Assembly (NCBI GenBank): GCA_030649205.1
Contig: JAUSGE010000044.1
Span: 1-48,497, forward strand
DNA length: 48,497 nt
Direction: 5' to 3'
DNA from: a bacterium
GTDB taxonomy: Bacteria; Patescibacteriota; Patescibacteriia; Patescibacteriales; GWC2-42-12
The position numbers and the translations under genes are program-made. Below are positions 25,552 to 30,573 of this stretch, piece by piece. The notes beneath the pieces were generated by a model, which saw only the letters and a list, made by a program, of their open reading frames with translations, searched no databases and was not told where the DNA came from. Every line of letters begins with the position of its first letter. Positions within the stretch are counted from its first letter, which is position 1.

Positions 25552-27387
25552 TTAGATAATGCTTTCGTGAAACTTGGCTTCAATCTGGCGCGGGGTGATG
25601 TTGTGTTTTTGGTTGTAAGCCAGCTGATAACGCCGCCGGCGCTTGGTTTCATTGATGGCGTAGCGCATGGCCGGCGTAATTTTATCGCCGTACAAAATAA
25701 CCTTGCCTTCAAGATGCCGAGCGGCGCGGCCCATGGTCTGGATCAGGGAAGTTTCAGTGCGCAAAAAGCCGGACATGTCCGCGTCTAAAATGGCGACCAG
25801 TGAAACTTCGGGCAGGTCCAAGCCCTCGCGCAATAAATTAATGCCCACTAGAACGTCATATTTGCCCAGGCGCAGATCGCGCAAAATATCCACCCGTTCC
25901 AGGGTTTCAACTTCGCTGTGCAAATATTGGACTTTAATCTGCTGTTCGGCCAGATAAGCGGCTAACTCTTCGGCCATGCGCTTGGTTAAAGTGGTTACCA
26001 GGACGCGCTGTGCTTTGGCGGTTCGGCTTTTTATTTCCGGAATTAAATCCTGAATTTGGTTTTGGCTGGGCCTGATTTCTATTTCCGGATCTAACAGCCC
26101 GGTCGGCCTGACTAATTGTTCCACTATTTGCCGCGAGTTTTTAATTTCATATTCGGCCGGCGTGGCGCTGACATAAATTATTTGCTTGATTTTATCATTA
26201 AACTCCTCAAAATTAAGCGGCCGGTTGTCCCGGGCTGACGGCAGGCGAAAGCCGAAATCAATTAAGGTCTGCTTGCGCGAGCGGTCGCCGGCGTACATGC
26301 CGCGGATTTGCGGCAGGGTAGCGTGCGACTCGTCAATAAACATTAAAAAATCTCTGGGAAAAAAATCAATCAAAGTTTCCGGCGGCTGTCCGGCGGCGCG
26401 GCCGGACAGATGCCGCGAGTAATTTTCTATGCCATTGGCGTAGCCGACTTCTTCCATCATTTCCAAATCGTAATTGGTTTTTTTCTCCAGCCGGTAGGCT
26501 TCAACGTCTTTGCCCTGTTTTTTTAAGACCTGTAATTGTTCGGCCAGCTCTTGGCGGATGGCGGCTAAAGCGCGCTTCATTTTTTCTCGCGGAGTGATAA
26601 AATGTTTAGCCGGCAGGATAGTGATGTGGGGGAGGGAGGTAAAATCCCCCCCAGCCCCCTTTGTTAAAGGGGGTAGAAGCGGTAAATCCCCCCAGCCCCC
26701 TTTGTTAAAGGGGGTAAAAAAAATTTCGTCAATCACATCGCCGAACAGGGAGATGCGAATTACGGCCTCGCCGGTGGCCAGATGAATTTCAATATTTTCT
26801 CCTTTAGCGCGGAAACTGCCTCGCTTGAATTCCAGGTCATCACGCAGATATTGGATGGCTACCAGCTGGCGCAACAGTTGATTGCGTTTAATGGTCTGCC
26901 CGACCTGAAAACGCAAACTCATGGCTTCGTAATCGGCGCGTTCGCCTAAACCGTAAATACAAGAAACGCTGGCCACGATTAAAACGTCCCGGCGGTTTAA
27001 GAGAGATTGGGTGGCGGCATGGCGCAGGCGGTCAATCTCTTCGTTGATGGTGGCTTCTTTTTCAATGTAGGTATCGGTCTGGGGGATATAGGCTTCGGGC
27101 TGGTAGTAATCATAGTAGGAAACAAAATAATGCACCGCGTTGTCCGGAAAGAATTGTTTGAATTCACCGTACAGCTGGGCGGCCAAAGTTTTGTTATGGG
27201 AAATCACCAGCGTGGGTTTTTGAATCCGGGTAATGACATTGGCCATGGTGAAAGTTTTGCCCGAGCCGGTTACGCCCAAGAGCGTCTGATCGCGATAGCC
27301 CTCTTTAAGGCCATTAACCAATTTGGCAATGGCTTGCGGCTGATCGCCGGTGGGCTGAAATTTGCTTTTTAAAATAAACTTAGGCAT
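25552..27387 (-). CDS. uvrB: Excinuclease ABC subunit B, lacking the UVR tail
   Basis: The 611-residue helicase-like damage-verification subunit has Walker A GVTGSGKT near residues 38-45 and the beta-hairpin region [20 protein letters not shown] near 92-111. It also has DESHATLPQ (motif II) near 345 and [13 protein letters not shown] (motif VI) near 550. It ends at AKFHESII, about where the linker to the C-terminal UVR domain normally begins. That domain, which contacts UvrC, is absent. Two adjacent family A repeats add roughly 25 residues near 224-248, within the UvrA-contacting domain 2. A family B repeat follows the stop directly. No Shine-Dalgarno site is seen. Confidence 0.94.
26644..26675. 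repeat. Family A palindrome, copy 5
   Basis: CCCCC-TTTGTTAAA-GGGGG core, in frame in uvrB, translated on the minus strand as part of [10 protein letters not shown]. Confidence 0.8.
26684..26716. repeat. Family A palindrome, copy 6
   Basis: A near-identical copy directly beside copy 5 in uvrB, translated as [11 protein letters not shown]. Confidence 0.8.
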
Positions 27388-27507: not shown

Positions 27508-27536
27508 TTGACAAGGGTATGAAGATATGATAAGGT
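27508..27536 (+). promoter_or_regulatory. Promoter of the candidate ncRNA
   Basis: TTGACA at 27508-27513 and TAAGGT at 27531-27536, spacing 17, preceded by TGA (extended -10). It points away from both flanking genes, which are on the minus strand. Confidence 0.6.
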
Positions 27537-27550
27537 AATAAGTTAAATTA

Positions 27551-27581
27551 AATCCCCCTTGCCCCCTTTGTTAAAGGGGGC
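27551..27581. repeat. Family A palindrome, copy 7
   Basis: CCCCCTTTGTTAAAGGGGG core, intergenic, in the 5' part of the candidate ncRNA. Confidence 0.8.
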
Positions 27582-27689
27582 ATTAAAGAAAGGCCAATTT
27601 AAGCGGGCCAGGCACGACAAGCATGGGGATTTTCTTGCCAGTATTATTTGGTGCGAACTAAATTTATTCTGGCGGAAATTTTCTTGCCT

Positions 27690-27712
27690 GCCCGCTTAAG
27701 CGGGCCTTTTTT
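27690..27712 (+). terminator. Terminator of the candidate ncRNA
   Basis: GCCCGC-TTAA-GCGGGC (27690-27705) followed by a six-T run. It is directional for the plus strand. Confidence 0.75.
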
Positions 27713-27714
27713 CT

Positions 27715-27747
27715 AGACACTCGGCGTCCACTGGATGCCGAGTGTTT
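27715..27747. repeat. Family D palindrome, copy 2
   Basis: AGACACTCGGCGTCC-ACT-GGATGCCGAGTGTTT. One arm has changed, giving a C/A mismatch, but most pairing remains. It abuts the stop codon of the minus-strand VanW gene. Confidence 0.8.
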
Positions 27748-29613
27748 TTAATTGGCTGACGGAGTAGAGGTGGCCGTGGTATTTGACAAAGAAGATAATT
27801 TTTCCACGCCCAGAAGGCAGACTTCGCGCCAAGGCACATAATGAGAAGAAAATCTCTTTTCTTTAACCGCGCCGTCAGGGTAAATAACTTTGTAATCAAA
27901 ATAAGCATCGGCGCCGTTATGGGCTTTTTCCGTGCATTTTTTTTGTCCTGGCTTTAAAGCCAAAGTTTCTATCAGCTTGGCGGGTTCCGGTTTGACAATA
28001 TTATAAATCACCGGCCTAGTGCTGGTCGCGGTCCGGCCGTCGCGCGCGCCCCAGAATTCAAATGATAAATTATCGCCGTCAAATTTCGCCTGGATTAATA
28101 TGTAAGCGGCCATGTCATTAATAAAGCGGAAATCAGGCGCCGGATCGTAGATAGTGGCATCGGTGCCGGCCGGTTCGTAGTAGCTGACGCGGTAGGAATG
28201 GTTGCGCCTCATGGTAACCGGCAGGCCGCTGGCGACAGTGGCGCGAAAAACCGTGGTGCCGATCTGGCACAGCCCGCCGCCGAATTCCGGCAAGGTTTTG
28301 CCTTCTTTAATGACTAGTTCCGGCAGATAGCCGGTGGAGCTGGCGACCTCGCCCAAAATTTTTAACAAAGAAAATTCTTCGCCCGGCTTAATCAGCGTGC
28401 CGTTAACCGAAGCGGCGCCGATTTTTATATTATGGCGCCGGTTGGCCGGCGAACCTTTAAAATTGGAGGCGCCCACGCCGATGACTTCCTTAATGCCGTA
28501 ATCATTAATGTTGCCGGCGTTAACTAAAACCGGCTGGGTTTTTACGGCCAAGCTAATCGGGCCGTTGCTAAACAGCTCTTGCTCCGCTTTAGCCAGGCTG
28601 GCGGCCGCGTCAACTTCCAGCCCGTCTTGCCCGTTTTGAAATTCGCTGACTTTGCCGTTTTGAATTTGAAATTTGGCCTCTTGGGGCTGGCGCTCTATTT
28701 TGGGGGCGATTTGTTCGGTTAAGTAAGCGGTAAATTTGGTTTCATCCAGCCCTACTCTAACCTTATCATCGGCCGAATCATTTAGTTTTAAGGACAGCAT
28801 TGCCGCCAGCTCTGCCTGGCTGATGGCCCATTGATTCTCTCCGTAGCTTAAGGTTAGCGGCGCGGCGTTCAAGACCGCTTGGGCTTTAGCGCTGACGTTC
28901 AAACAATCTTTAGCTAAAATTTTCGGATAGGCGGTGACGGTGGAAAGTTTAATCTCCTCGGTATTTAGCCCGGCCAGATTATTCAGCATTTGTTCAATCG
29001 CTTGCTTGTAATCCACGGTTTTGCCTAATTTTTCAGGCTCTAAAGAAAATTCATAGGCGGAAACCGCCGGCCGATATTCCACTATCAAGCCGGCGTCGCG
29101 CGCCGGCTCGTTAACCGAAGGAAGGTTATTTTCTAAAATATTTTCCAGCGCTGCCTGGTTCACTATTACGGACAAGGGCAGCCGTTTGCTGGCGAATAGA
29201 AGCACTAGTTTGTTTTTCAGGCTGCCGAGGAAGCCATCATTTCGGCCATAGTTCAAGGCCGCGGCCGCGGTTTGATCCGCGTCAAAATTAATAATCGGGT
29301 AGGCCAAGTCGCCGCCGGCCGAGGCCGAAACCGGCATGACGGTGGCCTTAAGATCATGATAAGAAAAAACTACGCCGCGCTGATTGATTTGATCAACTTC
29401 CCGGTTTAATAGCTGTTTAGCTTGATCAGCGGTCCGGCCGCCCAGATTTAGATCGCCGACGAAGAGGTTGGGATAAATTTTATTCTGAAAGATTTTATCA
29501 AAAATTATTGTACCCGCGGCGGTCAGGGCGAGAAAAATAAAAAAAATGATTGCCGGAAAAAGCAACCATCGCGGTAATAAGCTGTTAATCGTGTCTCTGT
29601 TAATCCCTAACAT
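27748..29613 (-). CDS. VanW-family, membrane-anchored cell-wall protein
   Basis: The 621-residue protein has an N-terminal signal anchor (about 15-38, LLFPAIIFFIFLALTAAG), so the rest lies outside the membrane. Two peptidoglycan-binding-type repeats are suggested near 50-190 and 215-345. The VanW domain is near 395-530, with PGEEFSLLKILG, GGGLCQIGTTVFRA and RRNHSYRVSYYEPAGTDAT. VanW is named from a vancomycin-resistance cluster, but its activity is unknown and this gene is not evidence of resistance. The start is 1 base beyond the stop of the DUF3006 gene, with which it forms an operon. No Shine-Dalgarno site is visible. Confidence 0.87.
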   Translation of the reverse strand: MLGINRDTINSLLPRWLLFPAIIFFIFLALTAAGTIIFDKIFQNKIYPNLFVGDLNLGGRTADQAKQLLNREVDQINQRGVVFSYHDLKATVMPVSASAGGDLAYPIINFDADQTAAAALNYGRNDGFLGSLKNKLVLLFASKRLPLSVIVNQAALENILENNLPSVNEPARDAGLIVEYRPAVSAYEFSLEPEKLGKTVDYKQAIEQMLNNLAGLNTEEIKLSTVTAYPKILAKDCLNVSAKAQAVLNAAPLTLSYGENQWAISQAELAAMLSLKLNDSADDKVRVGLDETKFTAYLTEQIAPKIERQPQEAKFQIQNGKVSEFQNGQDGLEVDAAASLAKAEQELFSNGPISLAVKTQPVLVNAGNINDYGIKEVIGVGASNFKGSPANRRHNIKIGAASVNGTLIKPGEEFSLLKILGEVASSTGYLPELVIKEGKTLPEFGGGLCQIGTTVFRATVASGLPVTMRRNHSYRVSYYEPAGTDATIYDPAPDFRFINDMAAYILIQAKFDGDNLSFEFWGARDGRTATSTRPVIYNIVKPEPAKLIETLALKPGQKKCTEKAHNGADAYFDYKVIYPDGAVKEKRFSSHYVPWREVCLLGVEKLSSLSNTTATSTPSAN

Positions 29614-29614
29614 C

Positions 29615-29830
29615 TTAAGGTTGGTTAATTATTTCATTGATAATGTCTTTGGCGGCCTGCCGGTCTTTTTCCCCCCGCTCTTGGTCTTCCATGATTTCAA
29701 AATTCAAAGCCAGGCCGTCGCGCGCGCCGGCCGGAAGCTTGTCTTTTGGCCAGATAATAGTTTGTCCATCATGGCTAATTAAAACTGCCTGGTCATTTTC
29801 AAAGCGATCAATGGTGAGTCTGATGATCAT
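29615..29830 (-). CDS. DUF3006-type small protein
   Basis: The 71-residue protein begins with the family pattern RLTIDRFENDQAVL and continues with IIWPKDKLPAGARDG, then a charged helix. DUF3006 proteins are small beta-barrel-like proteins of unknown role, often next to secreted or MBL-fold proteins. It lies immediately upstream of the VanW gene on the minus strand and is probably co-transcribed. The upstream gap to hsp20 contains a family E repeat pair. Confidence 0.75.
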   Translation of the reverse strand: MIIRLTIDRFENDQAVLISHDGQTIIWPKDKLPAGARDGLALNFEIMEDQERGEKDRQAAKDIINEIINQP

Positions 29831-30414: not shown

Positions 30415-30491
30415 TGGTGGACAATACTGGGCTCGAACCAGTGACCTCCACAATGTCAATGTGGCGCTCTAACCAACTGAGCTAATTGTCC
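30415..30491 (-). tRNA. tRNA-Val (anticodon GAC)
   Basis: The cloverleaf is complete: acceptor GGACAAT/ATTGTCC, D arm GCTC/GAGC, anticodon stem CCACA/TGTGG with loop TTGACAT (anticodon GAC), T loop TTCGAGC, discriminator A. The 3' CCA is encoded (30415-30417). Confidence 0.95.
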
Positions 30492-30499
30492 ATTTTATG

Positions 30500-30573
30500 T
30501 GCGCCAGGATGGACTTGAACCATCGACCCCGGCCTTATAAGGGCCGTGCTCTAACCAGCTGAGCTACTGGCGC
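30500..30573 (-). tRNA. tRNA-Ile (anticodon UAU)
   Basis: Acceptor GCGCCAG/CTGGCGC, D arm GCTC/GAGC, anticodon stem CGGCC/GGCCG with loop CTTATAA. Position 34-36 therefore reads TAT, decoding AUA. The T arm GATGG-TTCAAGT-CCATC resembles ordinary tRNA-Ile(GAU). CCA is not encoded, unlike the adjacent tRNA-Val. Most bacteria decode AUA with a lysidine-modified CAU tRNA instead. Confidence 0.9.

Follow-up and report, generated by a model that had tools for sequence, protein, structure and literature searches.

Positions 27508-27712 (plus strand) of the window very probably hold a gene for a small structured RNA that makes no protein, that is carried by about nine in ten genomes of one class of ultra-small bacteria, the Patescibacteria class to which its genome belongs, and that matches no known RNA family. 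The window is the whole stretch of DNA analysed here, 48,497 nucleotides long, and lies in a 1.22-Mb genome of 50 contigs. By BLAST, the core of the RNA (27591-27712) was found in 98 of 117 relatives, at about 71-84% identity where the match spans most of it. By covariance model it was found in 259 of 286 genomes of the class (at least 90% complete) at E <= 0.001, mostly once. The named carriers are Falkow-, Uhr-, Magasanik-, Komeili-, Kerfeld- and Jacksonbacteria, which GTDB places in class ABY1/Patescibacteriia. The function of the RNA is inferred and has not been shown.

The gene occupies a 360-base gap between two minus-strand genes, and this gap is made of four pieces: the promoter, a palindromic repeat of about 30 nt, a core that is unique in the genome (27583-27716), and a second palindrome with a T-run. 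Only the promoter and the core are conserved as a unit. The first palindrome sits between the predicted start site and the core, so that part of the apparent length of the gene is a repeat inserted in the leader. A similar repeat sits in the same place in the leader of the close relative G005 (locus L010), while most relatives have a shorter leader.

Features of the RNA gene and its surroundings (positions in the window).
Position	Strand	Feature	Evidence
27508-27536	+	Promoter: TTGACA (27508-27513), 17-bp spacer with TG at 27528-27529, -10 TAAGGT (27531-27536)	Sequence; spacer conserved in homologous loci
27542-27712	+	Whole predicted transcript, about 170 nt; start inferred from the conserved RUYR after the -10	Promoter alignment and fold; start and end not measured
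27543-27582	+	Stretch of the leader that holds a dispersed palindromic repeat; not part of the conserved RNA	Over 20 other copies in the genome; absent from most relatives
27591-27613	+	P1 closing helix, 5' arm	Covariation, 21 of 22 pairs with double changes
27614-27624	+	Conserved internal loop, 5' strand ACGACAAGCAU	Nearly invariant over the class
27625-27642	+	P2 helix, 5' arm	Covariation and predicted fold
27647-27661	+	P3 apical hairpin with near-invariant G27650.U27659 and invariant G27651-C27658	G.U in 85 of 86 and G-C in 86 of 86 sequences
27667-27683	+	P2 helix, 3' arm	Covariation and predicted fold
27684-27685	+	Internal loop, 3' strand UU	Alignment of homologues
27686-27712	+	P1 closing helix, 3' arm (27686-27707), running into the U-tract (27707-27712): intrinsic terminator	Covariation; U-tract in most members
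27717-27749	+	Second palindrome plus T-run, a dispersed terminator-like repeat; probable backup terminator	About five other copies in the genome
27748-29613	-	Convergent VanW-domain gene; recurrent neighbour of the RNA, not part of it	Convergent VanW in at least 75 of 105 loci
25552-27387	-	uvrB, upstream neighbour, not conserved in this position	Comparison of loci

The preliminary description of this locus as an orphan plus-strand RNA gene with its own promoter, long-range helix and terminator was confirmed, and the evidence is stronger than it had supposed. The -10 hexamer alone is weak and was missed by a consensus scan, but the arrangement is conserved: in 92 of 105 homologous loci the best promoter match has exactly a 17-bp spacer, nearly all of them TTGACA-N17 with TG before TA, followed about six bases later by RUYR. 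The segment 27540-27715 folds with z = -7.3 and 27542-27711 with z = -6.8, and no shuffled sequence folds as well. The long-range helix, described earlier as 15 bp, has 22 pairs. The GCGA tetraloop (27653-27656) is real in this genome but is not conserved, and the near-invariant apical feature is instead the G.U pair followed by the G-C pair. The 3' arm of the helix had also been proposed to form the 5' arm of a terminator, giving two mutually exclusive folds. This arm alone can form a hairpin of -12.0 kcal/mol, against -56.8 for the rod, but this is an outlier, since the median over 77 homologues is -2.3 and only 9 reach -6. The conserved terminator is the closing helix plus its U-tract, and the mutually exclusive folds are not a property of the family.

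Conservation of the gap and of its paired arms in relatives had been named in advance as a point to be examined, and the pairing is conserved. We aligned 60 homologues with MAFFT and named a structure by hand; of its 37 pairs, 30 had changes on both sides, and 307 cells changed on both sides against 108±13 in shuffles. With 86 sequences fitted to the model, including much more distant members, 34 of the 37 pairs had double changes, with 719 double-change cells against 212.7±19.5 in shuffles and 137-205 in slid controls. This second alignment was fitted to the structure and leans towards it, whereas the first was not. P1 is built from quite different sequences in different families, and the pairing is kept. 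The lower nine pairs of P2, counted apart on 75 sequences, hold 90% standard pairs and 51 double changes, against a shuffled mean of 14.5 and maximum of 26. The internal loop shows the reverse, since its sequence is kept and most of it has no pairing partner: ACGACAAGCAU faces UU between a C-G pair present in all 86 sequences and a G-C pair that starts P2. G.U cells outnumber A.C cells 369 to 105, which fits folding of the plus strand, and a minus-strand RNA was rejected on these counts. A short peptide from the conserved AUG was also rejected, since the open frame has 3 to 48 codons with no fixed length.

The distribution of the RNA extends beyond the class. In a sample of the phylum, 36 of 380 genomes match, five of them outside the class, in the families that we numbered f83, f98 and f126. 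The f83 and f98 versions have a like promoter and rod but a much smaller loop, and the f83 locus again has VanW convergent. About 9% of the sampled class genomes gave no match, but stricter filters were used on these large samples, so that absences are not firm. Some genomes carry two or three copies and family f37 usually has two; extra or tandem copies were seen in homologous loci L051 (447-685), L127 (2426-2674) and L213 (1501-1838), and in L051 and L127 one copy follows the other directly. We also looked for the RNA outside Patescibacteria and in viruses. The 17-mer occurs there, but 10 named non-Patescibacteria loci and 4 viral contigs score at most 18 bits with the model, against 60-124 for most true members, and they are therefore chance matches.

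No plus-strand gene follows the RNA, as the preliminary description had stated; the next gene (VanW-like) is convergent. The nearest downstream ORF is convergent in 94 of 104 loci, while upstream genes vary and the RNA persists where VanW is absent. We read this context as gene-order inheritance, perhaps helped by a shared terminator, and not as a functional pair. A small DUF3006 gene (29615-29830) lies upstream of the VanW gene, and a similar ORF recurs there in many relatives. A cis-acting riboswitch or attenuator, controlling a downstream gene on the same strand through alternative folds, was rejected, given the convergent downstream ORFs and the lack of conservation of the alternative fold.

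A search of Rfam 15, including the 6S models, had been proposed beforehand as a test, and no family matched at gathering score; at E <= 10 the hits at the RNA are weak and differ from homologue to homologue over diverse homologues. The 6S model (RF00013) found nothing in 21 related genomes while it detected 6S RNA in 6 control genomes. The SRP RNA models RF00169 and RF01854 each gave no match in 13 related genomes, and RF00169 gave none in 145 genomes of the phylum; searches for tmRNA and RNase P RNA were not made. The SRP pathway looks absent in this clade, since the Ffh M domain (PF02978) was found in 0 of 13 related genomes and in all 14 controls, and the SRP GTPase domain (PF00448) gave only two weak matches in 13, again with all protein controls positive. 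Literature searches gave no description of this RNA in the open-access papers that could be searched.

Among known systems, 6S RNA (ssrS) is likewise a stand-alone rod-shaped RNA of comparable size, with a closing stem and an apical arm around a central loop, and the rod criterion is fulfilled here. The 6S bubble, however, is large and unpaired on both strands (PMC8876501), whereas comparison and prediction give a loop of 11 nt opposite 2 nt, smaller still in f83 and f98; the loop sequence is near-invariant, and P1 carries its own terminator U-tract. Ms1 RNA of Actinobacteria is also a lineage-specific rod-like RNA found through conservation and gene context, but the recurrent neighbour here is VanW and not the Ms1 neighbours, there is no Rfam match, and the partner has not been identified. 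Bacterial SRP RNA is a single-copy, hairpin-shaped housekeeping RNA with a conserved internal loop, but neither of its models matches and the related genomes lack a detectable Ffh M domain for it to bind.

The interpretation given in the preliminary description was thus supported only in part: an orphan gene of trans-acting or housekeeping type, not a switch for a neighbour, is supported, since the RNA is conserved across a class, usually single copy and independent of its neighbours, whereas the competing folds and the suggested membership in 6S RNA are not. Our best explanation is a stand-alone gene for a structured, non-coding, trans-acting RNA of housekeeping type. Sequence and comparison show a plus-strand locus with a near-consensus extended -10 promoter and its own terminator, encoding one continuous rod made of P1, the almost invariant 11-nt/2-nt loop, P2 and the apical hairpin P3, conserved through most of one class of Patescibacteria and usually in single copy. 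That it is transcribed, and constitutively, is an inference, as no transcript, binding partner or phenotype has been seen. Also inferred is the role of the rod, which would keep the RNA stable and present the loop ACGACAAGCAU/UU and the apical GG.U element as docking sites for a conserved cellular partner, most likely a protein such as RNA polymerase, a ribosome-associated factor or an RNA chaperone, forming a ribonucleoprotein that regulates or scaffolds that machine. A near-invariant unpaired loop inside a covarying rod, behind a constitutive-looking promoter and usually in single copy across a class, is the pattern expected of an RNA with one conserved partner. The partner is inferred only from the conserved unpaired loop and the near-invariant G.U pair, and the smaller loop of f83 and f98 indicates that the loop is not essential to every version. 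We give this whole statement a probability of about 0.5, while that of a real, non-coding, structured RNA gene of this shape is about 0.95.

Other explanations are unlikely but not excluded. The RNA could be a functional stand-in for 6S RNA, in which the rod mimics promoter DNA and binds RNA polymerase holoenzyme, with the internal loop as a shrunken bubble and P2/P3 as the upstream arm. The rod shape with closing stem, loop and apical arm, the length of about 170 nt and the strong promoter speak for this, and the lack of RF00013 matches in 21 related genomes means that the role may be vacant. The 6S features used in this comparison are those given in PMC8876501 and PMC9130861. However, no homologue matches 6S, the 2-nt 3' side of the loop leaves no 3' bubble to hold a -10-like element, and an 11-nt near-invariant sequence is not among the 6S features that we drew from these two papers; binding to polymerase and templating of pRNA were not assayed. 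About equally unlikely is a base-pairing sRNA in which the unpaired ACGACAAGCAU is a seed for one or more mRNAs or rRNA, as could be suggested by an almost invariant single-stranded stretch in an otherwise paired, covarying RNA. The exact complement of the 11-mer occurs nowhere else in the genome itself, and most relatives have at most one or two extra copies, whose positions were not compared; seeds shorter than 11 nt were not examined. The complement of the loop also resembles a stretch of 16S rRNA, but a rough count by hand gave about 0.6 such matches expected by chance in rRNA, and this resemblance was dropped without a computational test.

Least likely is a local element, either a bidirectional terminator or an antisense regulator at the 3' end of the convergent VanW gene. 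The recurrence of VanW could mean a more local role, and P1 has A-tracts on its 5' side and U-tracts on its 3' side, so either strand could end transcription. However, this does not explain the near-invariant loop, the apical G.U pair or the conserved promoter, and the RNA persists in many loci with no VanW neighbour.

A structured RNA kept in so many genomes of a class, in cells with very small genomes, is likely to do something basic, and it offers a concrete entry to RNA biology in bacteria that are mostly uncultured, since its covariance model finds it readily in other genomes of the class. What is new is the family, and this rests on the absence of any known relative and not on a demonstrated new mechanism. 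If the RNA binds RNA polymerase it would be a variation on a type of RNA already known, and if it binds something else it would be a new kind of housekeeping RNA. It is possible, although tentative, that it is a previously undescribed class-wide housekeeping RNA of Patescibacteria, older than the class because versions with a smaller loop occur elsewhere in the phylum, and forming a ribonucleoprotein with a conserved machine in bacteria whose close relatives lack detectable SRP RNA, Ffh M domain and 6S RNA.

Elsewhere in the window, two copies of the dispersed palindromic repeat of the leader lie in frame inside the uvrB coding sequence (26642-26714). The second dispersed palindrome, downstream of the RNA, is probably a terminator family. 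Two tRNA genes are located on the minus strand at 30418-30573.
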